From positions 1 to 40,443 of the IMG/VR virus record IMGVR_UViG_3300025840_000076: a stretch of 40,443 bases of DNA; one strand, written 5' to 3'. The DNA comes from a virus. The notes under the pieces were generated by a model that worked only from the letters and a program-made list of their open reading frames with translations, did not search any database and was not told the origin of the DNA. Made by a program: the position numbers and the translations under genes. Numbering within the stretch: position 1 is the stretch's first letter; each line of letters starts with the position of its first letter. This document shows, piece after piece, positions 6,130 to 36,648 of the stretch.

Positions 6130-6139
6130 GCTATTCCTT

Positions 6140-7025: not shown

Positions 7026-7026
7026 A

Positions 7027-9120
7027 TCAGCCTTTCGCCTCTGACCATGACTGTGCGTGATGCGCTTCTACTTCCAAAGAAACGCCCATGATTACCTTAC
7101 CATTCCCCATTGCCTGCTCTAGTGCAGGTTCCCACTTAGGGATCTCTTCGATGGGGACGGATACCACTAATTCGTCGTGTACCTGTACGAGCATCCGGCA
7201 CTTCGGATAGTCAAGAGTCCGGTGAACCCGAACCATGGCTTCCTTACAGATTTCGGAGGCCGTACCCTGAATGATGGCGTTGATCGCCTGCCTCTCAGAG
7301 CGAGCCTTAGAAGCAAAGTCGTCAGAGTTCAGGTCGGGCACACGACGACGGCGACCCTTCATAGTCTCCACGTATCCGATACGCCGAGCCTTAGCGATAG
7401 TGCGGGTCTTCCATTCCGTCAGTTGGGCGTAGCCCGAGTTGTAGTTCTCGACGACCTGCTTCGCATCCTCCATGGAAAGTTTGCCCCCAGTAGCCTCAAC
7501 CAGCCGCTTAGGACCGCCCCCATACCCCATAAGGAAGTTGGGGACCTTGCCATAGATGTTGCGCTCTTCGCTGTCGATCTCTTCCGGGGGCTTGCCAAGG
7601 ATGACGCTGGCCGTACCGGCGTGTACGTCGATGTTCTCTGCGAAGATGTGGAGCAGTTTGGGGTCCTGCGAGTACATCGCCATGATCCGCATCTCGATCT
7701 GGCTGTAGTCAGCCACGATCAGGCTGTTGTTCTCCTCTGCCACGAACAGGCTCCGCACCCTGCCATCCCGGGGGATGTTCTGGAGGTTGGGGTCGCTCGC
7801 AGAAAGACGGGAGGTAACCGTGCGGTGGAGGTGGAACTGTGGGTGCAGTCGGCCCTTGTGGAGCAGGGGGAGCAAGCCGTCAACGTATGTTGACTTCATC
7901 TTCTTGAGTTCGGCGTACTCCATGAGCATGTCCACCACGGGGTGCTGTCCCTGTAGCGACTTCAGAGAGTCCTCGTCCACGCTGGGCTTGCCACTGCTGG
8001 TCGTCTTCTTCGGCTTCAGCCCCAGCCCTCCCTCACGCTTCTTGTCGAAGAGTAAGTGGGACTTGTGGACGTTGGAGTCTGGGTTGAATCCCACGGGGGC
8101 GTACTGAGAGATGTCGGCCACCTTGTTGTTCAGATCAAGGTCGAGCGACTTGCCCAGCCGGGTCAACTCCCGCTTGTTGACCTGAATACCGTTCATCTCC
8201 ATCTGTGCGAGCACTGATAGCACGTCGATATCAAGGTGAAGCACGTCCATAAGCGTCGGTACTGCGGCGATCTTCCGATACAGGCGGGTGTAAACCAGCC
8301 ACGCCCAGCGGGCGTCGTAGTGGACATACCGGCACGCCCTGCTGAACGGCTCGGTGGTGATGGTCTTACCGATCTTGCCGTCCCTGTGGTACGGGTCGAA
8401 CTTGAAGACCTTGTCGAGGATAGAGACCAACCGGTAACTCGGCAGGTTCTCATCGACGATGTGCATGAGCACCTGCGTGTCGATGTACCTACCCTTAGGC
8501 AGTTCTCCCCCGTAGTACTTCGCCACGGACTTACAGTCGAACTTGATGTTCTGGTTGACCTTGACGATGTCCTCGCTCATGAACAGCGGCTCCAGAGCAG
8601 AGAAGACAGTCTCCTGCGTCATCTGCTCGGGGGGATCGGTGAACGTAGCGGGGATGTAGTACTTAGCCCTCGCCATGCTCTCCTTACCGCTGGAGAGGAC
8701 CGCCCGATAACCGGGGGGCGGAATGGTCGAGCCGTCACCACGTTGCTCTGGGACCAGCACCTCGCCGTTGGGGTGGCCCATGGGGATAGCCCACGACTGA
8801 CCCTTGGTGGCGATGCCGATCCAGAAGACCTCGTTGCGGAGAGTGTCGAGGGCTACGTTGCCACGCCACTTGTCCTCAATGGCCTGTCGGGACCGCTGGA
8901 CGACAGTGGGGTGCGTGGACTTCAGGCTGTCTGACTTGGACTTCCACTCTGCTTCGACGAGGTCCATGACCTCTGCGTGGCGTTCGATGTTGCCACGGGT
9001 CTCTACGTCGAAGGAGAAGATGCCCTCTGCCTGTACGGCCCTGACAATCTCGGGAAGTTGTTCAGGAGAGAGAACGGCGGGGGCACTTGGCCCCCGCCGT
9101 CCCGTCACAGGGGATGACAT
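7027..9120 (-). CDS. polA: Family A DNA polymerase with 3'-5' exonuclease domain
   Basis: The 697-residue replicative polymerase is of the Pol I family. The N-terminal proofreading exonuclease shows ExoI FSFDVET, ExoII NQNIKFDCKSV and an ExoIII-like YVHYDARWAW. The polymerase domain has SRLSASDPNLQNIPR, motif A VADYSQIEMRI, the O-helix region YGKVPNFLMGYGGG and motif C VQVHDELVV. There is no 5'-nuclease domain. The residue equivalent to E. coli Phe762 is Phe. The exonuclease domain is long, with an insertion after ExoI (roughly residues 45-115). It acts with the SSB, primase and helicase genes upstream in the same transcript. Confidence 0.96.
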   Translation of the reverse strand: MSSPVTGRRGPSAPAVLSPEQLPEIVRAVQAEGIFSFDVETRGNIERHAEVMDLVEAEWKSKSDSLKSTHPTVVQRSRQAIEDKWRGNVALDTLRNEVFWIGIATKGQSWAIPMGHPNGEVLVPEQRGDGSTIPPPGYRAVLSSGKESMARAKYYIPATFTDPPEQMTQETVFSALEPLFMSEDIVKVNQNIKFDCKSVAKYYGGELPKGRYIDTQVLMHIVDENLPSYRLVSILDKVFKFDPYHRDGKIGKTITTEPFSRACRYVHYDARWAWLVYTRLYRKIAAVPTLMDVLHLDIDVLSVLAQMEMNGIQVNKRELTRLGKSLDLDLNNKVADISQYAPVGFNPDSNVHKSHLLFDKKREGGLGLKPKKTTSSGKPSVDEDSLKSLQGQHPVVDMLMEYAELKKMKSTYVDGLLPLLHKGRLHPQFHLHRTVTSRLSASDPNLQNIPRDGRVRSLFVAEENNSLIVADYSQIEMRIMAMYSQDPKLLHIFAENIDVHAGTASVILGKPPEEIDSEERNIYGKVPNFLMGYGGGPKRLVEATGGKLSMEDAKQVVENYNSGYAQLTEWKTRTIAKARRIGYVETMKGRRRRVPDLNSDDFASKARSERQAINAIIQGTASEICKEAMVRVHRTLDYPKCRMLVQVHDELVVSVPIEEIPKWEPALEQAMGNGKVIMGVSLEVEAHHAQSWSEAKG

Positions 9121-9129
9121 GGAGTGTGG

Positions 9130-9792
9130 TCACTCCATCTCTTCGGCGGCAATGCCGACGAGAGTCTCCCGGTTGGGGATGGGCACGATGCTGGCATCGT
9201 ACGCCTGCTTCTTGATCTGCTCCAGACCATCCTCGGTCAGGGGGGTGATGTTCCACTCCTCCTCCAGATCCCGGTCACGCACCATCTGGTGGTTGGTCTG
9301 CGAGGTCGGTCCCTTACCGGAGCGGCTGATCGCCCAGTAGTGCTTCGGGAGTGGTCCCTGACGGGGGTCCTGATGGAAGTTCTTGAGGCTGTCGATGACC
9401 CGAGGGCCAACCTCATAGGACTTGATCGTGGTGTCGCCGTCCTCGCTCAGCAGAGCGACGTTGAAGGCGAAGCGGGCAGACGGCCTGTGACCTGCGTCAC
9501 ACAGCGGGCAACCCTTGGGGTGCATGTCAGCGATGCACGTGAAGGACTTCTGGCCCTGCCGCTCGATCCAGTGCTGGCGGTACGAGGTGTACGGCTCGTC
9601 CTCCAAGAACTTGATGATGACAGGCTTGTCGTCAATCTTCAGGCGCTGGGCGTAGGGGGAGTCAGCCTGCTTGGTCTGCTCCACGTTGCCCCATCCCCGC
9701 TTGATGACCCTACGGGCCTCGGTGCGGTCGATGTCGGGGGCGGTAGCAATGCTCCCACCCGTGTCTTCGGTATCGTCGTCAAAACGTCCCAT
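9130..9792 (-). CDS. Single-stranded DNA binding protein (T4 gp32-like)
   Basis: The 220-residue protein has the layout of phage gp32-type SSBs. An acidic N-terminus precedes RRVIKRGWGNVEQTK. The core includes PVIIKFLEDEPYTSYRQHWI and a zinc-binding-like GCPLCDAGHRPSARFAFNVA segment. YEVGPRVIDSLKNFH follows, as in OB-fold SSBs of this class. A Glu/Met-rich acidic end (AAEEME) fits the usual partner-binding tail. It would protect template strands and work with the polymerase directly downstream (9 bases away). Zinc ligands beyond the CxxC and nearby His are not certain. Confidence 0.8.
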   Translation of the reverse strand: MGRFDDDTEDTGGSIATAPDIDRTEARRVIKRGWGNVEQTKQADSPYAQRLKIDDKPVIIKFLEDEPYTSYRQHWIERQGQKSFTCIADMHPKGCPLCDAGHRPSARFAFNVALLSEDGDTTIKSYEVGPRVIDSLKNFHQDPRQGPLPKHYWAISRSGKGPTSQTNHQMVRDRDLEEEWNITPLTEDGLEQIKKQAYDASIVPIPNRETLVGIAAEEME

Positions 9793-9807
9793 GGCTCTAA
9801 CTCTTTC

Positions 9808-10272
9808 TCATGTCGTTGGGTAATTGTCGGCAATGTGCTTTCGGAAACCCTTCCAGTCAGGACTGTCGGGGTCGTCGATAGCATATGCCATCGCCGCCTC
9901 TACGAGAAACACGATCTGTGCCTCGCTGTAGAGACGCCGTCCCTTCACCGCCTTACCCGGAATCTGTTCCGACTTCGGCGCTGGGGTGCGGAATGATGCT
10001 GGAGGAATCCAGCCTTTCGCTTCCCACGAGCGAATGGTGACAGGCTTGCGGTTCAGTGCGGATGCCAAGGCACCCACCGTGTAGAACCGGCGAGCCATAC
10101 CGTTCACCAGATACTCATAGGAACGGAGGGAGTTTAGCCACTCATGTGTGGCGCTGTCAACGCCCCCTCCACGATTTCTTGGTGCGACGTTACCGGGGTA
10201 ATCGGGGCCGTCGTCGTCCTGCTCACGCTTGCTGGTGAGTGCGTTGAAGTAATCCAAAGGGTCTGTGCTCAT
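9808..10272 (-). CDS. MerR-like helix-turn-helix DNA-binding protein
   Basis: The protein of about 154 residues has a central winged-helix region of MerR type: RRFYTVGALASALNRKPVTI, then RSWEAKGWIPPASFR and GRRLYSEAQIVFLVEAAMAY. The tail (PDWKGFRKHIADNYPTT) is common in phage helix-turn-helix proteins. The ATG at 10270-10272 overlaps the upstream stop as ATGA and has AAGG upstream; the longer frame to 10311 is not needed. It could be a transcriptional regulator of phage or host genes, or an excisionase-like factor, but there is no integrase in view. It is the only clear DNA-binding regulator in the window. Confidence 0.75.
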   Translation of the reverse strand: MSTDPLDYFNALTSKREQDDDGPDYPGNVAPRNRGGGVDSATHEWLNSLRSYEYLVNGMARRFYTVGALASALNRKPVTIRSWEAKGWIPPASFRTPAPKSEQIPGKAVKGRRLYSEAQIVFLVEAAMAYAIDDPDSPDWKGFRKHIADNYPTT

Positions 10273-10469
10273 CCAGCAACCTTCGTACTCTGATGCCAAC
10301 TCTGATACCAATCCGAGTACTCACTCAGACCAGCCATGACACCACGAATCCATTCAGCGGCGAGCACGATCTCGTCGGGGTCGCTGATGTCCCACTGTGC
10401 CCAGATGCCACAGTTCTTGGACTTGAGCCAAGAGATAATGATGTTGAGGTCATCCTCATAGACAGCCAT
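10269..10469 (-). CDS. Small hypothetical protein (66 aa)
   Basis: The 66-residue protein is rich in Trp and Ile (NIIISWLKSKNCGIWAQWD, then YSDWYQSWHQS). AAGGAG lies eight bases before the ATG. No family is recognised. It is soluble-looking despite the many aromatic residues, and is coupled by ATGA to the MerR-like gene. It may be a small protein partner of that regulator, but nothing in the sequence proves it. Confidence 0.65.
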   Translation of the reverse strand: MAVYEDDLNIIISWLKSKNCGIWAQWDISDPDEIVLAAEWIRGVMAGLSEYSDWYQSWHQSTKVAG

Positions 10470-10490
10470 TTGTGCTACTCCTTGTGTTGT

Positions 10491-10643
10491 TCAGAGACTA
10501 TTGAAGTAATTATCCCGCTGTTTGCACGCGCTTTTGTAGGTAAGACCGTAGAAGTAGTAGATCACTTTACCTTTTACTACCATGATCTCCCACTTGAATG
10601 GGCGAATCTTTCGGACTACTTGGTCTTCTTTTGGTTGAGCCAT
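10491..10643 (-). CDS. Very small hypothetical protein (50 aa)
   Basis: An ATG at 10641-10643 opens a 50-codon frame ending in TGA at 10491-10493. The product starts MAQPKEDQVVRKIRPFKWEI and continues MVVKGKVIYYFYGLTYKSAC. It is basic with alternating hydrophobic/aromatic residues that suggest a small beta-sheet. It overlaps the upstream 48-residue ORF in another frame by 28 bases, and GGGACTGAAAGA precedes the start. An internal ATG with GGGAG could give a 30-residue form. No family is recognised. Confidence 0.5.
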   Translation of the reverse strand: MAQPKEDQVVRKIRPFKWEIMVVKGKVIYYFYGLTYKSACKQRDNYFNSL

Positions 10644-10762
10644 TCTTTCAGTCCCTTGACGGAGATGGTTTCAATCCCGGCCTGCTCGTGTACGTCAACG
10701 AGATGTCCGAGAACTGTGTAGACCTGCTGGGGGCTGGCATCTTTGGGGATAGCAATTGCCAT
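10616..10762 (-). CDS. Very small hypothetical protein (48 aa)
   Basis: A 48-codon ORF from ATG 10760-10762 to TAG 10616-10618 follows a GGAAGGA-type site. The product is MAIAIPKDASPQQVYTVLGH followed by LVDVHEQAGIETISVKGLKE and WLNQKKTK, a compact alpha/beta sequence with sensible composition. It lies in the longest stretch lacking annotated genes (10470-10815) and accounts for most of it. No family is recognised. Confidence 0.55.
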   Translation of the reverse strand: MAIAIPKDASPQQVYTVLGHLVDVHEQAGIETISVKGLKEWLNQKKTK

Positions 10763-10815
10763 GACTTGTGTCCTTCCGTCTTAGGGGGGTGTGGAGAGAC
10801 GAACTTAGCACACCC

Positions 10816-11235
10816 TCAGTAGTCGTAAGTTGCTTCCTCGACCGGTTTCATGAAGGCGTAAGAAACTGGTGCCTCTTTGTAAAGGTTCTGGACCTCATCC
10901 TCGATGCCAGCCTCGTCCCGGTGGTCGTAGACGTAGGCCATGAGGGCATCCTCGTTCAGGACCCTGATCTCGTCGCTGACCTTCTCCCAGATTCCTCGCT
11001 CCTTAGCCCACTCCTCAGCGGCCTCGATGTTGAGGGACTTGTTGCCCTGTCGCCTCTGCTTCTGGAGCATGAAGGGGCCGATCTGGAGCCACTTGTGGCC
11101 CTTGTCGTCCTCCTCGCCCTCGGCATCCACGGCCTCAGATAGTTGCTTCTTGTACTCAGCCACGATCTTGTTGAGGGCCTCCACGTGGCGCAGGTGGCTC
11201 ATGTACTCCTCGGTAATGCGCTCTAGTTCGCTCAT
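10816..11235 (-). CDS. Hypothetical protein with N-terminal coiled coil (139 aa)
   Basis: The protein begins with a long amphipathic helix (MSELERITEEYMSHLRHVEA, then LNKIVAEYKKQLSEAVDAEG), followed by a beta-like WLQIGPFMLQKQRRQGNKSL region and a helix with KERGIWEKVSDEIRVLNEDA. The acidic end contains PVEEATYDY. The ATG overlaps the SNF2-like helicase stop as ATGA, so the two are translationally coupled. No family is recognised; it could be a partner of the helicase. Confidence 0.75.
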   Translation of the reverse strand: MSELERITEEYMSHLRHVEALNKIVAEYKKQLSEAVDAEGEEDDKGHKWLQIGPFMLQKQRRQGNKSLNIEAAEEWAKERGIWEKVSDEIRVLNEDALMAYVYDHRDEAGIEDEVQNLYKEAPVSYAFMKPVEEATYDY

Positions 11236-12770
11236 AGGGAGGAGTCTCGCAGAAAACCACTGAGCGTGTCAAGAGTCAATTCCATACTTCCTTCTTTGTT
11301 GAGGTGCTTGCCGTCGATGAACGCCTCGTTGACCGAGCGCTTCATCTGGAGCATGTCGTACTGACGCTCTTCGATGCTCCCCTGCATGACGAAGGTGGCG
11401 ATAGTTACGTGGGGGAACTCAGACGACAGGCGGATGATGCGGGCCTCCCGCTGTTCCAACTTACCGCTAGACCACGGCAGGTCGTAGGAGATGAGGTAGT
11501 TCGCCATAGGTAGGTCCACGCCGTAGCCACCAGCATCCGACGACAGGAACAGTCGACACTTGGGATCGTCAGCAAACCGCTGCTTCGATGCGTCCCGCTC
11601 CTCGGCAGACATGCCTCCCATAAACAGAACGCTGTCCGTTATGGAGGTCATAGCGTGCTGTATCAGGCGCAGGTTTTCTTTGAAGAACGAAAACAACACG
11701 ACCTTGTTGTTGTTGTCCTGATCGAGTACCTCGGTGATGTACTCCACGACCGCATCCAACTTGGGGGTCTTTGTTACGCCTTCCAGCCATCCCCGATGAA
11801 CGATGTCGTATGCGTACTCACTGCCCTTCGGCGTATTGGGGTCCTTGAAATCGGTGGCGGACTTGCGTACCAGAAGATGGTTGTCGCAAAGCATCCGAAG
11901 CACGGTAAGGCGAGACATAATCTGCCCCTGTGTCTCATCCCCGTCTCCTCCGTTGTAGTGCGCCCATAGGTTGAAGCCCCCCTTACCCTTACCCATAGCC
12001 TCCGATATCTTCGCTAATAGGTCATTGGCGATGCGTCTGTAAGCCGCCGCGCCGCCGGCGTCGAAGGTGACCGGGACAGTCTGGTGGATGATATCCGGCA
12101 ACTGATCCTTGATATCGTCCCGGGTCTTGCGGACCATGCACTCCTGCATCGTCTTGTGCATCTTGTCGAGGTTGCGATATCGGGTGGGTTTGCCCCAGTT
12201 ATCACGCACGATAAATGTCCGGTCAAACATCTTGAAGTCCCCGAGCACGTCTTTGTCCACGAACTCCATGATGCTGAAGAGTTCCTCGGGGCGGTTCTCG
12301 ATGGGCTGACCTGTCAGGGCATAGCGATATGGCACCGTCTTCCCGACCTTCTTGAGCAGGCGGGAGCGCTTGGCTGACCGGTTCTTGATCATCGTGCTCT
12401 CGTCGATAACCACGGCTTGGATGGTGCCTATGCGGTCCACGTCGTTAGCCAACGTCTCAGCATTGACAATGACGTACCTGCTGTTGATGGACATACGCCA
12501 CTGAACGTCACGCTTGTTCTTGGGGCCGTCGATCACGGTGGCTTTAGCGTCAGTGAACTTGCTGATCTCTCTTAGCCACTGGAACTTGAGGGAGGCGGGG
12601 ACAACAACAAGACAGCGGTCCACCTCGCCCTCGCTATGGAGTTGCTCGATGGCCCCCAGCGTGGTGGGAGTCTTGCCAGCACCCATGACCATACCCAGCA
12701 ACATCTGGCCCCTGTCGACCATGCGCTCTACGGCTTCCTGCTGGTACGGCCACAGGGTGCCCCTAAACAT
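11232..12770 (-). CDS. SNF2-family DEAD/DEAH-type helicase/translocase
   Basis: The 512-residue superfamily 2 ATPase is of the Swi2/Snf2 type. Motif I is MGAGKTPTTLGAIEQL (GxGKT), motif II is VVIDESTMIKN (DEST) and motif III ALTGQPIENRPEELFSI. The second RecA lobe shows KVVLFSFFKENLRLI, FLSSDAGGYGVDLPMANYLI (motif V) and SGKLEQREARIIRLS (motif VI). It would use ATP to translocate on double-stranded DNA, for example to remodel forks or remove proteins. The start overlaps the end of the primase gene, placing it within the replication set. It lacks accessory domains beyond the core. Confidence 0.9.
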   Translation of the reverse strand: MFRGTLWPYQQEAVERMVDRGQMLLGMVMGAGKTPTTLGAIEQLHSEGEVDRCLVVVPASLKFQWLREISKFTDAKATVIDGPKNKRDVQWRMSINSRYVIVNAETLANDVDRIGTIQAVVIDESTMIKNRSAKRSRLLKKVGKTVPYRYALTGQPIENRPEELFSIMEFVDKDVLGDFKMFDRTFIVRDNWGKPTRYRNLDKMHKTMQECMVRKTRDDIKDQLPDIIHQTVPVTFDAGGAAAYRRIANDLLAKISEAMGKGKGGFNLWAHYNGGDGDETQGQIMSRLTVLRMLCDNHLLVRKSATDFKDPNTPKGSEYAYDIVHRGWLEGVTKTPKLDAVVEYITEVLDQDNNNKVVLFSFFKENLRLIQHAMTSITDSVLFMGGMSAEERDASKQRFADDPKCRLFLSSDAGGYGVDLPMANYLISYDLPWSSGKLEQREARIIRLSSEFPHVTIATFVMQGSIEERQYDMLQMKRSVNEAFIDGKHLNKEGSMELTLDTLSGFLRDSSL

Positions 12771-13671
12771 ATACGGCGGTTACCTGTCGTATGCCGTGGA
12801 GGATCGTGTGGTCCGACATGGCCCCAAGGTCCTTGTCGTCGGTCTCGTACTTCCAGTACTTAGTCCCGTTACGGAGAGAGGGGAGACGGTCACGGAGACG
12901 CTTAGTCTCCATGCGGCCAGTGGGGTCGTTGTCGAGCGCAATGATCAAACCGTCAAAGCGGTCAGTCAGCAGCCGGATCTGCTGCTCCGAAACATTGGCC
13001 CCGAAAGAGGCGACAGCGGAGATATCAGGCTTCCCATACACGCTATGGAAACGCACCACGTCCAGAGGCGACTCCAGAAGCAACGCGGTCTCCGCGTGGG
13101 CACGCTCGATACCGAACAGAGTGTCGCCCTTATGCACGCCCTCCGGGTGGTTACGGACCCAACCGGTCTTCTTCAACTGCCATCCCCACAACTCTCCGAC
13201 GGGGGACACGATGGGGATAACCACACTCTTGTTAGTGGTATCCCATCGGATACCGTAACGGGCAGTCACTTCCTCATCGAGCCTGCGGAGTTCACGCATA
13301 CGGATCGGCAGGGGGCGGAACTTGCTGTACTGGCCCCAGTCGATGGGGGTGTAAGTCTGCCTGACCTCCTGCTCGCTCTCCGTCAGTCGCTGAAGACCGG
13401 AGGTGATGAGGTGCGACTGGATGCTCCACAGAGCGGACGGGTCGTTAGTCAGTTCGCTGATGAGCATGGACAGGTTGCCCCGGCCACCACAGGAGAAGCA
13501 GAACCACAGACCAGTATCGCAGTTGAGATACCACGAGTAGCGAGTGCTCTCTCGCCCCTTGATCCGGTGGTGTACGGGACACCGCCCGTTGATCTCGTCG
13601 CTCTGAATCTTGTTGATCTCAACACCGAGGCCCGAAAGAACCTCAACGAGGTCACTGCTCCTGTTGCTCAC
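12763..13671 (-). CDS. DnaG-like DNA primase (CHC2 zinc finger and Toprim)
   Basis: The protein of about 302 residues has an N-terminal zinc-binding domain (GRCPVHHRI, then WFCFSCGGRGNL, the Cys-His-Cys-Cys set) and a C-terminal Toprim domain. ALLLESPLDVVRF carries the conserved Glu, and LIIALDNDPTGRMETKRLRD carries the DxD-type motif. It would make RNA primers for the polymerase. A GTG at 13669-13671 preceded by GGAGAAAGCAC is a better start than the ATG six codons earlier. It has no helicase domain; that function is supplied by the DnaB-like gene upstream. Confidence 0.88.
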   Translation of the reverse strand: MSNRSSDLVEVLSGLGVEINKIQSDEINGRCPVHHRIKGRESTRYSWYLNCDTGLWFCFSCGGRGNLSMLISELTNDPSALWSIQSHLITSGLQRLTESEQEVRQTYTPIDWGQYSKFRPLPIRMRELRRLDEEVTARYGIRWDTTNKSVVIPIVSPVGELWGWQLKKTGWVRNHPEGVHKGDTLFGIERAHAETALLLESPLDVVRFHSVYGKPDISAVASFGANVSEQQIRLLTDRFDGLIIALDNDPTGRMETKRLRDRLPSLRNGTKYWKYETDDKDLGAMSDHTILHGIRQVTAVYV

Positions 13672-13912
13672 GTGCTTTCTCCAACACACTGCTAGTGATG
13701 AACTCAGTCAGAGCCGCTCGCCTTACGAGTTCAGCGTTACTGCCCTCAATGACTGCGATCTCGTTATCGTCCTCGTCTACCACAAAGATGCGATCATCCG
13801 TTGCCTCTGCCAGTTCCTCTCTCAACTTGCGGATGTACTGAGCGGCCTCCCTGAGCAGGTGAATCTCGGGGGTGCTGATGGCGCACCACTCCAGCCGATC
13901 CACGATGTCCAT
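13652..13912 (-). CDS. Hypothetical protein between helicase and primase (86 aa)
   Basis: From the ATG at 13910-13912, one base after the helicase stop, the product reads MDIVDRLEWCAISTPEIHLL, then a helix REAAQYIRKLREELAEATDD and a beta-like RIFVVDEDDNEIAVIEGSN. An earlier in-frame start at 13960 lies inside the helicase gene and adds only a basic shadow stretch. The first half (DIVDRLEW ... EAAQYIRKLREE) resembles a short motif seen in many small phage proteins of unknown function. No activity can be assigned. Confidence 0.75.
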   Translation of the reverse strand: MDIVDRLEWCAISTPEIHLLREAAQYIRKLREELAEATDDRIFVVDEDDNEIAVIEGSNAELVRRAALTEFITSSVLEKAREQQEQ

Positions 13913-13913
13913 G

Positions 13914-15164
13914 TCAGTCGAATGATGGGTCGATTTCGTCAACTTCGTACACCTCCTCAAACTCCATGGTCTGCCAGTCCCACTTGACGTGGACTTCTGC
14001 GTGGCCCGCTGTACGAGCCTCTACCACCCGGATAATGGCTTGGTCGTCGAGGTCTGGGTTGCGCTCAACACCCAGTACCAAGTCAGAGTCCTGCACAAAA
14101 GATGATGTGTAGCCAATTGAGTCCGCCGTGATCGCTCGGGTGCGTTTGTTGTTGAGTTTCCAAGATAGCACCTGCGACGTTCCGACGATAGGAATATCAA
14201 ACCGCTGAGCGAGTCGCTTCGTACCCCGGGTGATGTTGGTCAGAGCCTGCGGACTGCCCTTTGGCTCCCCGTGCTCGTCGTCCATGAGGTACATGCCGTC
14301 GATGTACACAGCGTCGGGCTGGTACTCCTGAATCTTGGCGGCAATGGCGCTGACCGTGGTCAGGCTACTGCTGTCCTCAGACATGATGAACGGTTGCATG
14401 TTCTTGCTGAGAACCATGGACTTGCGGATGCGCTCCATCTCAGCCTCAGACAACTGGCCGCTGAGGATGCGGTCATAGGGGACCTTGGCGTTGAGTGCGT
14501 CGTAACGTGACTCCTGCTCGGCTACGGACATCTCAAAGGAGATGAACATGGGGCGCAGGCCGTGTCGGTGGCAGGCGTTAGCCATGATCAACTCAAACAG
14601 CGACTTGCCTCGCTTCGGCTCGCCCACCATGACGACGAACTGCTGGGGGCGAAGTCCGTGGGTAATGCGGTCCAGCCCAGAGAAGCCAGTAGGGATACCA
14701 CGCAGTGCGTTAGGGGTATCACGCATTTCCTTGTAGCGCTCAAAGCGGGCTTCCCAGTTCTCGATGATGTTGAAGTCTCGGAGCCGTGCCGTATCAGCGC
14801 TGGCTGACTGGAGACCCTTGGACAGGATCGCCATGGCCTCGGACACGTCGTCCTTGTCGAGTGGCCCCATAGCATCCGACACCGCCGCAATGACGGTGCG
14901 AGAGCGGTACGCATTGAGCAGTTCGTCGAAGAGGCCGCTGAACGTCTCAGCACCCGTGTCCTCGATGTCAATGTCACCGTAGGCGACGTGGAAGGCTCGC
15001 TCGGAGGGGACGGCCCCGTGCTGGTTGTTGTAATCCAGCACCCACTGGTACACCTTCTCCCACTCGTTGGCGAAGTAGACCGGCTTGATGCCGGAGCGAA
15101 CAGCCTCGTGTAGCGACTGCTCCTCAATGATCTTGCTGATTACGAGGTGCTCAATAGATGCCAT
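13914..15164 (-). CDS. DnaB-like replicative helicase
   Basis: The 416-residue RecF/DnaB-type hexameric helicase has GIPTGFSGLDRITHGLRPQQ leading into the Walker A-like VGEPKRGKSLFELIMANAC, then PMFISFEMS (the following strand with catalytic Glu) and PDAVYIDGMYLMDD (Walker B). GTSQVLSWKLNNKRTRAITA matches motif H3, and QDSDLVLGVERNPD the late core region. The N-terminal domain is helical (EHLVISKIIEEQSLHEAV). It unwinds the fork ahead of the polymerase and is presumably loaded by the DnaC-like ATPase at 15606-16172. Its start overlaps the upstream stop as TGATG. Confidence 0.92.
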   Translation of the reverse strand: MASIEHLVISKIIEEQSLHEAVRSGIKPVYFANEWEKVYQWVLDYNNQHGAVPSERAFHVAYGDIDIEDTGAETFSGLFDELLNAYRSRTVIAAVSDAMGPLDKDDVSEAMAILSKGLQSASADTARLRDFNIIENWEARFERYKEMRDTPNALRGIPTGFSGLDRITHGLRPQQFVVMVGEPKRGKSLFELIMANACHRHGLRPMFISFEMSVAEQESRYDALNAKVPYDRILSGQLSEAEMERIRKSMVLSKNMQPFIMSEDSSSLTTVSAIAAKIQEYQPDAVYIDGMYLMDDEHGEPKGSPQALTNITRGTKRLAQRFDIPIVGTSQVLSWKLNNKRTRAITADSIGYTSSFVQDSDLVLGVERNPDLDDQAIIRVVEARTAGHAEVHVKWDWQTMEFEEVYEVDEIDPSFD

Positions 15165-28783: not shown

Positions 28784-30688
28784 TTAGAGAGCCAATGGTC
28801 CGCTTGAACCACCGCCATCGCCGCCGCCAGTGTTAGTACTGCCGTTATCCCCCGGAGGAAGTGGGTCATCTGGGCTGGGCCAACCGTCAAACCGCATAGT
28901 CTTAATCAGCCGGAAGTTAGTGCCCTTATAGTTGGGGACTAAATAATCCTCGACAGTTTTGCGCTCGGTAAGCCCATCGATACTCACCGTCACCGTGAGG
29001 CGAAAGCGAACAGCAAAGTAGAAGAGGTCGTTATTGGGGTGCGCCCCCTCGTCATCCTCTGACGGGCCGGTGGACTTATCAGTTTGTCCACTGCCAGAAA
29101 TACCACCACGTTGCTTGTCGCTAGTGCAGGCCCAGTCAGCCATTCTCCGCCACTCTTCACCGTTTGTAGCCTCAATAATGCCGTCTTCTCTAACGTGGTC
29201 TGCACCAATGTTGAGGTGGAATAATTTGGTTACTGTGCGGAATTCTCGGTCATTTCCGTCACTGTCCGGCAGAACTTCGTAAGCGCTAACGCCAATGGAA
29301 GTGGTAGTAGAGGATGAAAGTGCATCAAATAGATCTTCGCAAACTCCGCGAACATTACCCGGTAATGGGTTGGCGTTTTCCAGAAGCGCTGGAGTGGGGG
29401 CGGCGGATACCGCTCCTCGTAACCTAGCAAACAACGTAGAGTTTGCGTCTTTGAACGTATCGGTATACCTGTAACCGGTCACCGACCCAGACACCCCAAC
29501 CGAGACGTTGCGCCCGTTCTCTTCCATAAGGGCTAACAAACGGCGATGTTGCTGCTCGCCGTCGAATAGCACCTTGACGAAGAAGTCAAGGTCCTCAAGG
29601 TTCCTGTTAGAGATAGAGGTAACGCCAATGTCTTTAGAGACGAAGCGATCCATCGACACTTCGTTGTCATTCCAGTTCCGATCCCTATCGCCGTTGTCTC
29701 CAGCGGTACCCCCCTCACCAGAGGTGACCACCATTCTGATACTGGTCAGGTCGTCAGTCAGCGCCTGACCATACGCCGCCAACTCATCTCTAGTGGGCTG
29801 TTCTGGCTCAAGTTCTTCCAGAGCGCGTAGGGCATACGTGAAGTATGTGTCTTGCTTGGCGAATCCGATGTACTTGGCCTCAAACAGCACCTGCACAGAG
29901 CACTGCATGGGAACCATGGACGCAGTGAACTTAGAGAACATGATGTTGATGTCCTTGACCAGCCCCTCAACTATGTACAGCGAGGAAAAGACAACCCGAA
30001 CGGGGAGCGGCAGGAGGAAGGCACTGTTACCCAAGTTGTACTGCATCAGGTCTTCAATGCTCGTGGTAAACGCCCCCATGTCGTAATCCTCGGCGCTTTC
30101 CGAATCCTCAGCCAATTGTTGGTTATACGCGGCAATGGCTGACTGCTGGAGGTACTCGGCCATGGACTCGTTCACGCCCACACCAATAACCTTGAACAAT
30201 GCGCTTAGGTCGTGCAACACGCCGATATTGCTGGGGCTGGAGTTCTCCCACGGGTTATTGGGATCGATCTCATCCGTGCGCTTCCAGTTGTTGATCTCCA
30301 TACTCCGGTCGAAGAAGAGATCGAAGGAGAACGTCACGTTGCCGAACATCGGCTGTGCGTACTGGGCTGGGTCCTGCTGTAAGAAGTTCAGAACCTGCGT
30401 GTTCTGTTGAACAGACTGCACGATCTGCGAGGGGTTGAACTGGAACTGGCACTTGTTGATGGGGAAGTTCTCACGGTTATCACCGAAGGCAACAGACCTG
30501 ATATACCCCCGCTTGAGGATATGGACCTTTTCGCCATCCATAATGCGGACGGCACGGTCGGGATATATAAAGTTATCGTTATCTGATCCGCTAACCGCAT
30601 AGCCAGCGCGGGTAGAACGGGTGGAACGGAGGTTCTCACCAGAGGAGGACTTGGATAGACCGAACCACTGGTTAGTACGGTAAGACAT
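28784..30688 (-). CDS. CIS-tube-like baseplate/tail tube initiator protein (634 aa)
   Basis: The region INKCQFQFNPSQIVQSVQQN followed by GNVTFSFDLFFDRS (about residues 75-130) and GLVKDINIMFSKFTASMVPM with QCSVQVLFEAKYIG (about 245-280) matches the tube-like domain of contractile injection systems. At 634 residues it is far longer than simple CIS tube proteins. The second half (about 300-600) includes a beta-rich part ending in a Gly-rich tail (GGGDGGGSSG). It lies between the tape measure and the LysM/hub genes, which suits a protein that starts tube polymerisation on the baseplate. The extra C-terminal half is of unknown role. Confidence 0.75.
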   Translation of the reverse strand: MSYRTNQWFGLSKSSSGENLRSTRSTRAGYAVSGSDNDNFIYPDRAVRIMDGEKVHILKRGYIRSVAFGDNRENFPINKCQFQFNPSQIVQSVQQNTQVLNFLQQDPAQYAQPMFGNVTFSFDLFFDRSMEINNWKRTDEIDPNNPWENSSPSNIGVLHDLSALFKVIGVGVNESMAEYLQQSAIAAYNQQLAEDSESAEDYDMGAFTTSIEDLMQYNLGNSAFLLPLPVRVVFSSLYIVEGLVKDINIMFSKFTASMVPMQCSVQVLFEAKYIGFAKQDTYFTYALRALEELEPEQPTRDELAAYGQALTDDLTSIRMVVTSGEGGTAGDNGDRDRNWNDNEVSMDRFVSKDIGVTSISNRNLEDLDFFVKVLFDGEQQHRRLLALMEENGRNVSVGVSGSVTGYRYTDTFKDANSTLFARLRGAVSAAPTPALLENANPLPGNVRGVCEDLFDALSSSTTTSIGVSAYEVLPDSDGNDREFRTVTKLFHLNIGADHVREDGIIEATNGEEWRRMADWACTSDKQRGGISGSGQTDKSTGPSEDDEGAHPNNDLFYFAVRFRLTVTVSIDGLTERKTVEDYLVPNYKGTNFRLIKTMRFDGWPSPDDPLPPGDNGSTNTGGGDGGGSSGPLAL

Positions 30689-33456
30689 CAGGCAGTCCTC
30701 AGATCAAGCATGTCGACTTCTTCCTTTATCATCTTGCTGACTGTGTGGGCGATATTACGCAGATCAGGCGTTGCGGGGGCACCATTGAAGTTGATGACGG
30801 GGGCCACGTTGATGGTAGGCGACGATGTGATGTGCGTAGTCGTAGAACGTGACTGCTGTCCGTTAGTACCGCCCCCACGGCTGGGGGCATACGAAGCGTC
30901 GATCATTGGGTCGCCGCTGTACAGTCCGGCATCCTTGACGATTCGGAGCGCCTCGTCGACATTGGTATTGTAGGTATTCGATTCGCCCTTATATGCGCCC
31001 CAGTCGTGCAGCGAGCCGCCACGAGCCTGATACAGCGAGAACGCAGCACGCATATTGGTAGCAGGATCGTACAGATCCTCGTTCTTAGAGATACCAAACT
31101 GCCGCAAACGATTAACGCCCATCTGACCGAGCATGTTGATCTGCATCAGGCCGTAGGAATCGTCTTGGGTTGCGCGGTTGGGGTTGTAAGCGCCAGTGCG
31201 CCACCCACTCTCACGCTTAGCAATAGCCACAACGGCTGCGAGATCATCTCCACGGAAACCAGCGTTGTAGGCATACCGGGCAACTTCTTCACCGGTAAGT
31301 TGCCTGTTGTTCATGGGGGCCGTGGTGCGGCTTTCCCCAGATGAAGCCCCAGAGGGGCCACTGGCATACATTCCGGTGTTGCCAGCCGCCAACATGCGCG
31401 TGAGACCCATTGCCCGGTGAGCCTCCAGCATTTCGGAAATAGATCTGCCAGTTACCCCGATCATGGTCGATCCAGAGGCTATAACAGACCCTGAGTGCCC
31501 CTCAGCAGCGTGACCTTCAATAGCGGTACCCGAATCAGCGCCAGAAGAAGCGCCGTCGGTACCCCAAGGCGCTCCCTGCCCCTCATACTTTGCTCGGGAG
31601 TTGGGGAGATCCGAAGGCTGAACGTGCCACGGCTCGTTATTGACACCAGCAAAGTGCTTGAGGCCGAACTGTCCGGCGTTGGCGTTCATCCACTCAAGGT
31701 CACCAACCATGTCCACAGCGAGGCCGATTTCGTGCATGGACCTACCGGGAGGGGCGGCTGGAGCGCCGCTGACGTGCTTCCAATACTTGCCATCCCAGAA
31801 GATGTCGGTCTTCTCAGTGGTGGGCTGATAGCGGCTACGGAACATCTGCTCCTGCGACTGGGGGGAGCGGTAGCCCCCACCGATACCGACGTTGGGGTTA
31901 GCCCGCATCATCCGCAACAAGCGGTCACGGAAACGTGGCTTGATCTTCTGGAAGTCGGGCTTAGTCTTAAGTTCTGATAGGGATATGCGGTTGCCCCCAT
32001 ACCCGTACGGAACCATGGTGGTGTCGTCGTTTGCTGAACTGGTGGTGTTTTGCTGCGCAGAGGGAGTTCCCATACCCTCCGCTTCTGGGTTGGGGGGATC
32101 GCCTAAAGCGCCCAACAACCCACCTGTAATCATCATCGGAACGCCGAAAGCGGCACCACCGGGAACTAGTGATAACGCCCCACCAGCCGCGAGTAATGGG
32201 GTACTTAGAGAGGCGGCAGCACGCTGGAAGGGGCGAGTGCTGGTACGTGCCCCGATAATCCCGCTGAGTCTGTCCTCAAGACTGCCTAATGCCTCGATGA
32301 GTTTCTGGTTGCTCTTTTCCAGAGAGGCCATGTTGTCAATCTGGCGACGCATGAAGTTCTCTTCACGAGCACCCTGTACACGAGTAGTCTCTTCCTGCTG
32401 GGTGGCGAGGTTGTCCTCAATACCCATCATCTGCCGCTGACGGGGGTCAGAGGGGTCGTAGAAGCCCTTACCGCCCTTCTCTCTAAACTGAATCTGCTGT
32501 TGAGCGTACTGAAGGATGGCGGTCTGTGCTTCATCGCCAAGGCCCATGTCAGCCATGCGGGCACGAGTCACCGAGCCGGGAAGCAAAGCGCTACGAGCAA
32601 TAGCAGGATTATCCAAACCGAGTTGACGGACCAAGTTCTGACGGGTCTCTAGGGGGTCCCTCATGCCCCCACCGATGTTGTAGGCGTTAACTCCCGCCAT
32701 AAACAACATTCGGTTAGCCACCTCAGGATTCATGAGTTGCTGTTGTTCGGTGAGGATGTCCTGAGTGCTACGGCTGAAGCCGGACGAGACTCGGAGGGCC
32801 TCGATAGACCGGGCTAGATTGGCATTAGCAGTTACACCTGTCGCAGCCTGAAACTGCATCATGGCGTTTACGCCGTTCTCTCCCAGACGGTAATTCGTCA
32901 AGGGGCGGCGCATGTTCTCCATGACCTGCATCTGCGACATGCCGGTCATTTGCTGCGTTAGAACATTCAGCCTGTCAGCAGAGGTTGCGTAACTGATACC
33001 CCTATCAATACGGGCATCCATATTCTGCACGAGGGGTCTAAGCGTTTCACCGATGGCCTTTGCGATGGCTGCGGCACCTGCTGCTCGGCCAGCACCGCCA
33101 CCGGCTCGGTTCAGGAAACCACCTGCGGCACCGCCCCCACCACCGGCATCCCCGGCTTCCTGTACAGGCGCTGCCGCCGGAGTGATCTTGGAAAACCCTC
33201 GCTCAACCGCGTTGCCACCACCGCCGCCTTTACCGGCCATGATCCCCTGAACATTGCCAGCGGCCTTAGCGAGTTTCTCCATCTCCTCGCGCCACTGCTT
33301 AGTTAGGTCTTTGGCATCCTTGAGATGCTGCTTAAGTTTGCCTAACTGGTCAGTGTCGATGCGAAGACCGGCGCGTACCTCAGAGCGCAGGCGGCTATGG
33401 TTGCCGCCAATAACCTGTTCTCCAACCCGTGCTTCGGGCCCTTTAGGAGTGTCCAT
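30688..33456 (-). CDS. Tape measure protein with M15 peptidase and SLT transglycosylase domains
   Basis: The 922-residue protein begins with a coiled coil (LGKLKQHLKDAKDLTKQWRE), then Gly/Ala-rich and helical repeats, with a hydrophobic section near residues 415-450 (GVPMMITGGLLGALG). Around residues 480-610 lies an M15-type peptidase (GIGGGYRSPQSQEQM, SMHEIGLAVDMVGD, EPWHVQP). Around 728-835 lies an SLT domain (VVAIAKRESGWRTGAYNPN, DSYGLMQINMLG). It fixes tail length and probably opens the wall during DNA injection by cutting both peptide and glycan. The start has GGAGG upstream and lies just after the frameshifted chaperone. Confidence 0.9.
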   Translation of the reverse strand: MDTPKGPEARVGEQVIGGNHSRLRSEVRAGLRIDTDQLGKLKQHLKDAKDLTKQWREEMEKLAKAAGNVQGIMAGKGGGGGNAVERGFSKITPAAAPVQEAGDAGGGGGAAGGFLNRAGGGAGRAAGAAAIAKAIGETLRPLVQNMDARIDRGISYATSADRLNVLTQQMTGMSQMQVMENMRRPLTNYRLGENGVNAMMQFQAATGVTANANLARSIEALRVSSGFSRSTQDILTEQQQLMNPEVANRMLFMAGVNAYNIGGGMRDPLETRQNLVRQLGLDNPAIARSALLPGSVTRARMADMGLGDEAQTAILQYAQQQIQFREKGGKGFYDPSDPRQRQMMGIEDNLATQQEETTRVQGAREENFMRRQIDNMASLEKSNQKLIEALGSLEDRLSGIIGARTSTRPFQRAAASLSTPLLAAGGALSLVPGGAAFGVPMMITGGLLGALGDPPNPEAEGMGTPSAQQNTTSSANDDTTMVPYGYGGNRISLSELKTKPDFQKIKPRFRDRLLRMMRANPNVGIGGGYRSPQSQEQMFRSRYQPTTEKTDIFWDGKYWKHVSGAPAAPPGRSMHEIGLAVDMVGDLEWMNANAGQFGLKHFAGVNNEPWHVQPSDLPNSRAKYEGQGAPWGTDGASSGADSGTAIEGHAAEGHSGSVIASGSTMIGVTGRSISEMLEAHRAMGLTRMLAAGNTGMYASGPSGASSGESRTTAPMNNRQLTGEEVARYAYNAGFRGDDLAAVVAIAKRESGWRTGAYNPNRATQDDSYGLMQINMLGQMGVNRLRQFGISKNEDLYDPATNMRAAFSLYQARGGSLHDWGAYKGESNTYNTNVDEALRIVKDAGLYSGDPMIDASYAPSRGGGTNGQQSRSTTTHITSSPTINVAPVINFNGAPATPDLRNIAHTVSKMIKEEVDMLDLRTA

Positions 33457-33467
33457 GCACGCCTCCG

Positions 33468-33611
33468 CTACTGATTACGCCACTTCGCCATACGATACCA
33501 GAAATCGCGTTGGCGAACGGTCATTGATTTGATGTCGTGTAGACCAAACCCTTTGTATGCGGTGGCTATTGTTTCGTATTCCCAGTATAAAAGTTTCAGA
33601 CTAACTGAGTA
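33468..33611 (-). CDS. Frameshift extension of the tail assembly chaperone
   Basis: This 47-codon stretch continues the chaperone in the +1 frame and ends in TAA at 33468-33470, just before the tape measure ribosome binding site. It begins YSVSLKLLYWEYETIATAYK and ends MTVRQRDFWYRMAKWRNQ, with the aromatic/Arg pattern seen at the end of many chaperone extensions. In-frame ATG 33716 lies deep in the first gene and has no good ribosome binding site, so independent initiation is less likely. Joined at CTT (33613-33615) it would make a 310-residue fusion. Confidence 0.7.
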   Translation of the reverse strand, partial: YSVSLKLLYWEYETIATAYKGFGLHDIKSMTVRQRDFWYRMAKWRNQ

Positions 33612-34401
33612 AAAGGGAGACCCAGTCGAGCAGAATTGGCATATCTTCGCCGCAACTTGCACACTGAGTATCCACCTCCCCCATCTTCGGCCCGATCTCA
33701 ACAGAGAGAAGGGCATTGATCAACTTCTTACGGTCAGCCAAGTTCAACGAACGTGCCCACTGAACCGGGTTTTCGGGGGCCTGCCCCTCCGGCCACACTG
33801 AGCACCTCGCCAGCATCATGGTATTGAGTTCGGCATCCGTCTTGGCATCTTTCTGGGCGGCAACCGTGTCCTCACCATTAGGCAAACGCAGAACGATGTT
33901 TCCCTTAGAAGTTTCGACCTTAATACCGTCTCGGAGATCAAAATCGGGGTACGTAATTGGGAAATCCTTATCGAGTTCCAACTCAACATCGTTGATGATC
34001 CCACAATGCGGGCAGGCGATCTTGATCATTCTGGTGTCGCCGTAGGTAGCCCGAACAATCTGGAGATACAGGTAATCCCTATCTCCCAGAATCAACTTGT
34101 CCACAATCTTTGTGGAGTTGTTGACCTGAATACCGCCGACTCGGAGGAGTGCTCGACTGAGCAGGGCGCTCATGTACTCAGAGTACATAAGTCCCTTCTT
34201 GTTCTCAATCGAAGCAAGGTACTCCTCGTCTTCGCCATTGAGTTCTCGGATCTCGGCCTCAGTATGCCAAACGCCCCCCTCATCGTTTGACTCATACAAA
34301 CCTCGCATAAGTTCGACGACGGTGTTGGGGGCGTCCGACATGGTAGGAACCGGGTCAGAGATGGCCTCGTTGATACGTGCGGCTTCAGCCTGCTCGCTCA
34401 T
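33601..34401 (-). CDS. Tail assembly chaperone, short form (T4 gp26-like baseplate/chaperone family)
   Basis: The 266-residue protein has an acidic N-terminus, then LMYSEYMSALLSRALLRVGG, LILGDRDYLYLQIVRATYGD and two CxxC pairs (IACPHCGII; CASCGEDM) that probably bind zinc. This pattern resembles T4-type baseplate/chaperone proteins such as gp26 in SPO1-like and related myophages. It lies between tube and tape measure genes, the usual place for chaperones that coat the tape measure. The end, WVSLLLS, overlaps a +1 frame extension. A ribosome binding site AGGAG precedes the ATG. Confidence 0.78.
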   Translation of the reverse strand: MSEQAEAARINEAISDPVPTMSDAPNTVVELMRGLYESNDEGGVWHTEAEIRELNGEDEEYLASIENKKGLMYSEYMSALLSRALLRVGGIQVNNSTKIVDKLILGDRDYLYLQIVRATYGDTRMIKIACPHCGIINDVELELDKDFPITYPDFDLRDGIKVETSKGNIVLRLPNGEDTVAAQKDAKTDAELNTMMLARCSVWPEGQAPENPVQWARSLNLADRKKLINALLSVEIGPKMGEVDTQCASCGEDMPILLDWVSLLLS

Positions 34402-34431: not shown

Positions 34432-35061
34432 TTACGAAATGTTGCTGACCGAGGACAGGTCAACCGTGCCGTCCGCCGAGGAGGCCCACTGCACAGCGAA
34501 TCCCTCGTGGTTCAGCACGATCTGCTGAATCAGGATCGAAGAGTCACCAGCATTGAGGTCTCCCATCGAGAACGAAGCGGGCCAGCAGTTGAACAACTTG
34601 TAGCCTAACTTAATCGCACCAGCGGGGGTGGGATCGCTCTCGGAACGCCCCGGCTGGGCGTAAGAACCCGCCGACACCGGATGGTCGTGGACGGTGACGA
34701 CAACGTCGCACCGGTAGTCGTTGCTGCCCGACTGCGAACCCTCGTCATCGAGGCCACCCTGCGCCCACGAGTGCATGAACTGCTGCCACTTGTAGAGGGC
34801 ATCCTGATCGGCAAAGACACCCTTGGTAAGGGTGACGGGGCCGTAGTCAGACTGTCCAACCATCTTATGCGGATGGGTGTTCATGCCGCCCTCGCGGTAG
34901 GCAATCATCTCATTCTGGACAGTCAGACCAGAGACCACCGAGAACCCCAACTTGGGGAGGCTTGCGCCGATGAGGTCATTGAGGCGGGAACCCGACTCAG
35001 GCTGGATAATGACCTGAAACTTAAAGTTCCTAAGCGGGTCGGTTGCTGCTGCTCGTGCCAT
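34432..35061 (-). CDS. Tail tube protein (T4 gp19-like)
   Basis: The 209-residue protein opens with DPLRNFKFQVIIQPESGSRL and LGFSVVSGLTVQNEMIAYRE, the beta-strand pattern of gp19-type tube subunits. VTLTKGVFADQDALYKWQQF and CDVVVTVHDHP follow, and the C-terminal AGDSSILIQQIVLNHEGFAV strand is typical of the family. It forms the inner tube through which DNA passes. It follows the sheath gene, as in most contractile-tailed phages, with AAGGAG nine bases upstream. Confidence 0.92.
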   Translation of the reverse strand: MARAAATDPLRNFKFQVIIQPESGSRLNDLIGASLPKLGFSVVSGLTVQNEMIAYREGGMNTHPHKMVGQSDYGPVTLTKGVFADQDALYKWQQFMHSWAQGGLDDEGSQSGSNDYRCDVVVTVHDHPVSAGSYAQPGRSESDPTPAGAIKLGYKLFNCWPASFSMGDLNAGDSSILIQQIVLNHEGFAVQWASSADGTVDLSSVSNIS

Positions 35062-35082: not shown

Positions 35083-36648
35083 TCAGAGAGACTCGACGGC
35101 GTTGTTGCCGCCAGTCCACTGGCTGAGGTTGATAACAATGAACTCGGCGGGGTACTGAAGCGCCACACCGACCTCGACGTTCACGATGCCCTGATCGATA
35201 GTCGTCGTGGTGTTGTTGGTGGAATCGCAGACCACGAAGAAAGCCTGCGAAGCGTTGGTCCCAACCAGACCGCCGGAGCGGTAGAACTCCGAGAGGAAGC
35301 CGGAAACAACGACGTTGATACGCGCCCACAGGTTCGCATCGTTAGGCTCAAAGACAGCGAAGTCAGTCAACTGCTTGAGCGAGTACTTCAGGTAGTTCAG
35401 GGTACGGCGCACCGGGATGAACTTGTCCGAGGTAGCCCGGGCCAGCGTACGAGCACCGTAAACCACGACGCCCGCTCCCGGCACAGCCTTGAACGAGTTG
35501 ACGTACGGGTTACCGTCGTACAGCGTCCCGATATCGGTATCAGACAGCGGAACGGCGAGACCAAGAGCGCCACGGATATCAGCGTTGTATCCAGCGGGGG
35601 CCTTAGCGACGGAGCGCTGAACCTCAGTGCGGACCATCAAACCGGCGATAGCGCCACCCGGGTAGGTGGTGCGGATCGCGGCAGGACCAGTCTTAGCCGG
35701 ATCAACCATCTTGAGGGCCGGGGCGTAGTGGGCGGCGTAGCCACCGTTCGACAGACCCGAGAAGTTCGACGCAACCGTCTGAAGATCGCTCAGCGTCTCC
35801 GAGGTCTTGTCGGGGTCGATGATGACGAACGAGTCACCACGGGCCACAGCCTTGTTGATGATCGGAGTAAGCGCCGTGGTCGAGGTCTGACCAACAGCGT
35901 TCATGATCAGGTTGCCCGGAAGCGGGTCAACCTTGTCAGCGGCACCAGCGAAGTCCTGCGGTCCGACGACTCCCTCAGTACCGCCCGAGAAGGTGGCGAC
36001 ATTGTCAACCTCGGTAATCCACGCGAGGCTGGCATCGGGAGAGGTCGTCGAGACGCCGCTGACCGTGATGTACTTGCTGTAGGTGTTGACGACCGTAGCG
36101 ACGTAGCGGTTGCCGTCGGGATCAAGGGTGACCTCAGGCCAACGCTCAACTTCCACACCACCGAGATTCACGACAACGGTGAAGGTACCGTGGGCCGAGG
36201 CGGTGGTGTCAACCAGACCGGCAGCAATGGTGACCGTAAGGCTGTTGCCCCACGTACCGTTGCTGATAGCCTCGGCATCGAAGAGAGCGGCAGAAGCCGA
36301 TCCCGAGCCGTTCGGGTAGTAAGGAACGTCCAGCGACGCAGCCGCATCGGGGGTCACCGAGTCAGCGGTGCCACCCTCGCTGTCGTAGGTTCCAACAACT
36401 CGGACCACATGGCAGGCACGCCCACCATTGGCGAAGAAGTGGTAGACGGCGTAGCCGAGGTCGTAGGCGTTCTTGAGATCACCGTACGTGCGCTTGTAGG
36501 TAGCCCAATCGGTAACGAGGGTCGCAGTCTCGGGGCCGCGCTCCGCAGCGCCGAAGAACACAGCCGAGGTGCCTCCAGCGACGGAGGGGGTCAGGCTGGC
36601 GAGGGTGCCCTCATTGACGTAGACACCGGGAGTTGAGTAGGTAGGCAT
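35083..36648 (-). CDS. Tail sheath protein
   Basis: The 521-residue protein starts MPTYSTPGVYVNEGTLASLT, the conserved Thr-Pro-Gly-Val-Tyr N-terminal arm of sheath proteins, and then AVFFGAAERGPETATLVTDW. The C-terminal region TLNYLKYSLKQLTDFAVFEP and AVALQYPAEFIVINLSQW-type end (GVALQYPAEFIVINLSQWTG) match the arm that interlocks subunits. The central domains are Gly/Val/Thr-rich and exposed. It contracts to drive the tube into the cell. GGAGG lies seven bases before the ATG. This gene establishes the myovirus-type tail. Confidence 0.95.
   Translation of the reverse strand: MPTYSTPGVYVNEGTLASLTPSVAGGTSAVFFGAAERGPETATLVTDWATYKRTYGDLKNAYDLGYAVYHFFANGGRACHVVRVVGTYDSEGGTADSVTPDAAASLDVPYYPNGSGSASAALFDAEAISNGTWGNSLTVTIAAGLVDTTASAHGTFTVVVNLGGVEVERWPEVTLDPDGNRYVATVVNTYSKYITVSGVSTTSPDASLAWITEVDNVATFSGGTEGVVGPQDFAGAADKVDPLPGNLIMNAVGQTSTTALTPIINKAVARGDSFVIIDPDKTSETLSDLQTVASNFSGLSNGGYAAHYAPALKMVDPAKTGPAAIRTTYPGGAIAGLMVRTEVQRSVAKAPAGYNADIRGALGLAVPLSDTDIGTLYDGNPYVNSFKAVPGAGVVVYGARTLARATSDKFIPVRRTLNYLKYSLKQLTDFAVFEPNDANLWARINVVVSGFLSEFYRSGGLVGTNASQAFFVVCDSTNNTTTTIDQGIVNVEVGVALQYPAEFIVINLSQWTGGNNAVESL

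Follow-up and report, generated by a model that had tools for sequence, protein, structure and literature searches.

Known chaperone frameshifts and +1 recoding signals

In phage lambda, the G/GT tail assembly chaperone, encoded just ahead of the tape measure gene, is produced through a -1 frameshift (Xu, Hendrix and Duda 2004, reviewed in PMC5009743). Chaperone shifts in the +1 direction have been predicted for HSTV-2 (PMC5009743) and, at TTT-CGC, for the HF1 group of haloviruses according to the available part of PMC7230728, which reports no upstream helix for that shift. The +1 direction is in the minority among chaperone shifts, as the initial annotation of the locus studied here had stated, yet it had been predicted earlier in these two cases. 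In bacteria and phages, only a small number of +1 programmed frameshifts have been recognized, and no general motif for them has been described (PMC10885494). A stable hairpin directly upstream of CUUUGA stimulates +1 shifting in an E. coli 70S system, with about 60% of the effect of a Shine-Dalgarno (SD) sequence (PMC6321510). A hairpin upstream of a CUU site is also stimulatory for +1 shifting in yeast, where a 5' pulling force is among the proposed mechanisms (PMC3639245), and the bypassing of T4 gene 60 uses structures formed behind the ribosome (PMC11194080).

Here, we describe a tail assembly chaperone of an uncultivated phage, encoded on a 40.4-kb IMG/VR virus fragment, the whole of which is termed the window. 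Judged from sequence comparison, the best explanation of the locus is very probably that two forms of the chaperone are made through a +1 slip, with an upstream hairpin probably helping.

Locus organization and the predicted slip site

The features of the locus are as follows:

35083-36648, minus strand: tail sheath protein (PF17482, phrog_23)
34432-35061, minus strand: tail tube protein (PF06841, 83.8 bits)
33601-34401, minus strand: short form of the putative tail assembly chaperone, T4 gp26-like, 266 aa, with two CxxC motifs (PF12322, phrog_150, gene position)
33612-33615, minus strand: predicted slip site CTT/T, with the P-site codon at 33615-33613, the skipped base at 33612 and the A-site TTA at 33612-33610 (CTT invariant in 39/39 nonredundant relatives; YTT/Y in 144/144 distinct junctions)
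33468-33611, minus strand: +1-frame extension of 47 codons plus stop, the predicted C-terminal domain of the long form (open, homologous in relatives)
30688-33456, minus strand: tape measure protein, 922 aa, with VanY and SLT-type domains (domain match, gene order)

The 266-aa open reading frame scored 38.1 bits against the PF12322 profile, above the curated cut-off of 24.5, which places it in the T4 gp26 family; it also matches phrog_150 (baseplate hub). Its gene follows those for the sheath and tail tube and directly precedes that for the tape measure, an order shared by its relatives, and family and gene order together suggest a chaperone role. The VanY-like peptidase and SLT/lysozyme-like domains of the tape measure protein are of the peptidoglycan-cleaving kind. 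Replication genes occupy 5077-15164 on the same strand and encode a RecA/UvsX-like protein, a family A DNA polymerase, and SNF2-type and DnaB-like helicases. Named relatives are Streptomyces myophages at ~30% identity, and other related loci lie on Saccharothrix, Streptomyces, Actinomadura and Nonomuraea contigs; the phage of the window likely has an actinobacterial host. Searched at the DNA level against phage records, the locus gave no match, and Rfam and tRNA scans of the window found nothing.

The 3' end of the chaperone frame (34401-33601, minus strand) reads GTC TCC CTT TTA CTC AGT TAG, with TCCCTTTTA located at 33618-33610. The +1 frame is open through the overlap and stops at 33468; if CTT is read and T33612 skipped, TAC TCA GTT AGT... 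would follow, adding 47 residues and yielding a fusion of 310 aa. The chaperone end at 33601 and the 47-codon extension to 33468, both already recognized in the initial annotation, were confirmed from the frames on the minus strand. The extension also adjoins the tape measure gene as described there, since the ATG of the latter, at 33456, is 11 nt past the extension stop.

Conservation of the slip site and the extension

In a first set of 19 relatives (62-100% identity), CTT TTA and the +1 extension were kept in 19/19, with an extension of the type ...YWEYE...SM.VRQRDFWYRM.KWR. A wider search brought the sample to 70 distinct junctions, a Streptomyces-phage-type profile contributed 57 more and two further queries supplied others, which made 144 distinct junctions when pooled. 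YTT followed by T or C was present at the homologous place in every one of them (CTT_TTA in 54, CTT_CTA in 21, TTT_C in 66, TTT_T in 2 and TTT CTT ATA in one, L071), and the +1 extension was present in all except L179, where it is ended by the contig. The proposal of a +1 slip at CTT-T is thus supported: in the comparison of relatives that the initial annotation had suggested for the site at 33610-33618, a YTT/Y slip site was kept throughout, and none of the 144 junctions retained both frames without it. Conserved +1-frame coding and a conserved slip site, both seen by comparison, together strongly support the predicted shift.

The extensions of the CTT and TTT clades are homologous (98.5%), and the two site types can therefore be regarded as variants of one signal. 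The A-site codon is TTA or CTA in the CTT clade and, for example, CGC or CAG in TTT-clade relatives. Within the TTT clades, as few as 4-6 codons can separate the last +1-frame stop from the 0-frame stop that follows, and TTT is, as reasoned from the sequence, the only one of these codons that would re-pair well in +1. Additionally, TTT was retained in 5/5 genome-contig loci where it makes up 5-16% of Phe codons. Codon choice was examined in 39 CTT-clade chaperones with <85% mutual identity; only 3 of the 91 testable columns exceeded 95% codon identity, namely GAG and GTG (codons -25 and -24) and CTT (codon -4).

In GenBank records, the extension is either annotated as an ORF of its own or left out. 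Gp135 of KX925554 (BRock) and gene 91 of OR725497 (LuckySocke), both listed as separate short genes, are actually the +1-frame extension, and because their starts are placed inside or after the conserved part, this annotation is probably wrong.

A conserved RNA helix upstream of the slip codon

An upstream RNA helix, which the initial annotation had missed, probably acts as a stimulator. Its arms are as follows:

33664-33679, minus strand: 5' arm, GGAGGUGG, with ACUCAG in its 3' half, holding the invariant GAG GTG codons (alignment, covariation)
33611-33625, minus strand: 3' arm, CUGGGU.C.UCCCUUUU, containing the slip codon, with the upper stem at 33625-33620, -10 to -5 of the P-site codon (alignment, covariation)

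The RNAalifold consensus for the 39 CTT-clade sequences pairs GGRGAGGUG..ACYCA(G) with CUGGGU.UCNCUUYU and explains why the GAG, GTG and CTT codons are invariant. The 5' arm lies ~50 nt upstream of the arm with the slip codon, and the upper stem joins columns 31-36 with 75-80, corresponding to 33669-33664 with 33625-33620. Across the 14 helix pairs and 39 sequences, 92.9% of cells were paired, compared with 40-60% for slid partners, and 23 cells had changed on both sides, all in the upper stem. The covariation score of 0.234 (shuffled mean 0.184) was reached in 0/500 shuffles; because this control ignores the relatedness of the sequences, a held-out test and a tree-based pair test were added. 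In the held-out set of 14 sequences, which were fetched later and are <85% identical to all others, 99.0% of cells were paired against 36-56% for slid partners. Pair 36-75 joins two third-codon positions (CAG/CAA with GAC/GAT) and is therefore synonymous. It was G-C in 19 sequences, A-U in 14, G-U in 6 and A x C in none (Fisher p 3e-6), and on a tree from which the helix region had been left out, the A-U state must have changed at least nine times. It is not formed in a further clade of 12 sequences, where the codon is CAC or CTY. Covariation at pair 31-80 (A-U to G-C, 13 cells) comes mainly from one clade and carries less weight.

The window sequence itself folds into the helix, and the single-sequence stability of this region was not above that of shuffles (z +0.70), so the evidence for the helix is comparative. 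When only the mRNA upstream of -4 was folded, pairing at -10 to -5 in the CTT clade was 0.86 (median percentile 0.96), the mean for the same gene being 0.45. In a soil clade whose site is TTT CAG, a hairpin of unrelated sequence gave 0.88 (percentile 0.95). Values in the other TTT clades, the TTT_C relatives outside the soil clade, were weaker, at 0.58-0.68, so the hairpin is not universal. In the soil contigs (L145-L181), the strong hairpin AGGUCCCC...GGGGACCU stands upstream of CTG TTT CAG and ends 1 nt before the slip codon. A downstream stimulatory structure was found neither in the CTT clade (z +0.5) nor in the TTT clades. Direct SD action of GAGGTG on the slipping ribosome was also considered and rejected, as 57 nt is too far.

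Proposed mechanism

In the mechanism that we propose, most ribosomes would terminate at 33601 and yield the short form. Some ribosomes, with CUU in the P site, would slip forward by one base, the peptidyl-tRNA re-pairing on UUU, and would read the +1 frame to 33468 to produce a long form whose C-terminal domain has 47 residues. The hairpin would refold behind the ribosome, probably aiding the slip, and a further pause may come from the rare A-site codon. In prfB, which encodes RF2, the SD duplex lies around -10 to -5 from the P-site codon. The upper stem (ACUCAG/CUGGGU) would close at these same positions, replacing the SD:anti-SD duplex; the conserved stem closes directly upstream of the E-site codon, as expected of a refolding-hairpin stimulator. 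Given that the shift is real, we consider it rather likely that the helix is its natural stimulator. Once CUU occupies the P site, the ribosome encloses the lower stem as well as the slip codon, so the conservation of GAG GTG needs another reason. By analogy with lambda G/GT, we infer that the short form may coat the tape measure and that the long form may recruit tube subunits.

Alternative explanations

It is possible, although less probable, that the +1 shift is real and that the helix has some other task, such as protecting the mRNA or keeping an SD-like sequence from serving internal initiation, with the rare A-site codon as the stimulator. The lower stem indeed pairs the SD-like GAGGTG, and the TTT clades appear to shift despite weaker upstream pairing. 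However, the position of the upper stem matches that of the prfB SD duplex, and it is here that every two-sided change falls. The initial annotation had likewise suggested that a rare TTA slows decoding. Its rarity is borne out, as TTA is the fifth-rarest sense codon in the window genes (4.3 per 1000 codons), and CTA is rare as well; among the 26 main window genes that were examined, there is a single CTT TTA. The role of TTA is nevertheless uncertain, since its last two bases double as the start of a Tyr codon (TAY) conserved in the +1 frame, which confounds the conservation of YTA, and relatives use A-site codons such as CGC and CAG. A stimulatory helix remains our preferred reading.

Far less likely is a separate small protein translated from an internal start with no frameshift, for which one candidate start was identified:

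33660-33662, minus strand: GTG in the +1 frame (nearest clade only)

GTG 33662 stands behind the SD-like GAGGTG, which is invariant in the CTT clade; in the nearest clade, the in-frame GTG is 11 nt beyond GGAGGT, and GenBank lists distinct short ORFs in BRock and LuckySocke. However, in 33 of the 70 distinct junctions, the frame of the conserved extension offers no ATG, GTG or TTG ahead of it, and ordinary internal initiation is thereby excluded for those junctions; the remainder have a possible start. The available interval in the TTT clades can be as small as 4-6 codons, the annotated BRock starts fall within the conserved domain, and GAGGTG is accounted for by its pairing with the slip region.

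A -2 shift is more improbable still. It leads to the same frame as +1, and the initial annotation had kept both in view. Shifts of -2 are known in phage Mu. At the TTT_C and CTT_CTA sites of the relatives, however, the P-site tRNA does not re-pair at -2 but does so well in +1 (UUU to UUC, CUU to UUU or UUC). Of the two directions, +1 is therefore favoured, and the predicted junction product in the window should read VSL-YSV. Finally, sequencing or assembly error or a decaying gene, in favour of which nothing was found, has almost no credibility because the frame relation is identical in all 144 distinct junctions, which come from independent assemblies and isolates.

The wider gp26 family and significance

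Extensions in the +1 frame also follow gp26-family genes in Streptococcus phage GXN1 (TTT CGT), Bacillus SP-15 (TTT TTT C), Listeria LIS04 (TTT TTT A) and a huge phage (TTT CTA). In Xanthomonas phage XacN1 (L120, 2778) and the huge phage LR756511 (L118, 2769), a -1-frame extension lies near poly-T Phe codons; as other family members use +1, the direction appears to switch within the family. Alishewanella phage Slickus01 (L008, 4682) has an open +1 extension after its gp26-like gene, with no obvious YTT/Y near the end. Any homology of these distant extensions to those of the actinophage-like set was weak, with P values of 0.001-0.005 for LIS04, GXN1 and T4 gp51 against 0.014 for the best control. 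The extensions of SP-15, Slickus, XacN1, both huge phages and HF2 were not distinguishable from controls, and homology with the HF1 group was accordingly not detected. For T4 genes 26 and 51 (L111), gp51 looks like a gp26-like N part joined to an extension-like C-terminus, as if the long form had become a gene of its own. A 2022 paper on the T4-like chaperone, cited in PMC12846349, proposes, to judge by its title, a mechanism other than frameshifting. We regard as evenly balanced the broader reading that a natural +1 shift, with a refolding hairpin replacing the prfB SD duplex, is conserved in a large, mostly actinobacterial group of contractile-tailed phages, and that within the gp26-like chaperone family XacN1 and one huge phage have changed to -1, while in T4 the long form has turned into a distinct gene (gp51).

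These findings describe a deeply conserved and largely unannotated +1 frameshift family that includes cultured Streptomyces phages. Its RNA element occupies a position at which engineered hairpins are effective. If the proposal is true, the locus would offer a natural model for a structure behind the ribosome that pushes it forward, many chaperone gene annotations would be corrected, and switches among +1, -1 and separate-gene arrangements could be traced within one protein family.

Comparison with known systems

Like lambda G/GT, the locus would encode a short and a frameshift-extended form directly before the tape measure gene, and the features of a G/GT-type arrangement were found: a gene between tail tube and tape measure and a conserved overlapping frame that lacks its own start in nearly half of the 70 junctions (33/70). 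Unlike lambda, where the shift is -1, the window has a predicted +1 shift, a gp26-like N domain and a CTT/TTT site. The HF1 group and HSTV-2 share the +1 direction and the gene position, and TTT CGC of HF1 is the site of TTT-clade relatives; those viruses, however, are archaeal, and their N protein, compared by reading, lacks the gp26-like CxxC motifs. T4 gp26 and gp51 share the gp26 family, and the C-terminus of gp51 weakly resembles the extension (P=0.005), whereas T4 gp26 has no open +1 extension.

The initial annotation had equated the slip with that of prfB. The CUU to UUU slip at CUU_U is indeed shared, as are a slow A-site step and a duplex just upstream of the P-site codon. In contrast to prfB, the A site holds a sense codon (TTA/CTA) rather than UGA, a cis hairpin takes the place of SD:anti-SD, and the system is not autoregulatory as far as known. 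An SD ~3 nt upstream of CUU is absent, the sequence there being GGGTCTCC, and the SD-like GAGGTG lies 57 nt upstream. With the slip codon shared but the stop codon and nearby SD lacking, the site would work like prfB without being of the prfB type itself. The stable stem directly upstream of a CUU site resembles the hairpins of PMC3639245 and PMC6321510, which were engineered, whereas the helix here is natural and covarying. No earlier description of a conserved upstream helix for a chaperone gene was found in the literature examined. Chaperone recoding itself is known; the present case is distinguished by its gp26-like N protein, by slip sites of the form CTT_YTA or TTT_C, and by an upstream helix that is conserved.
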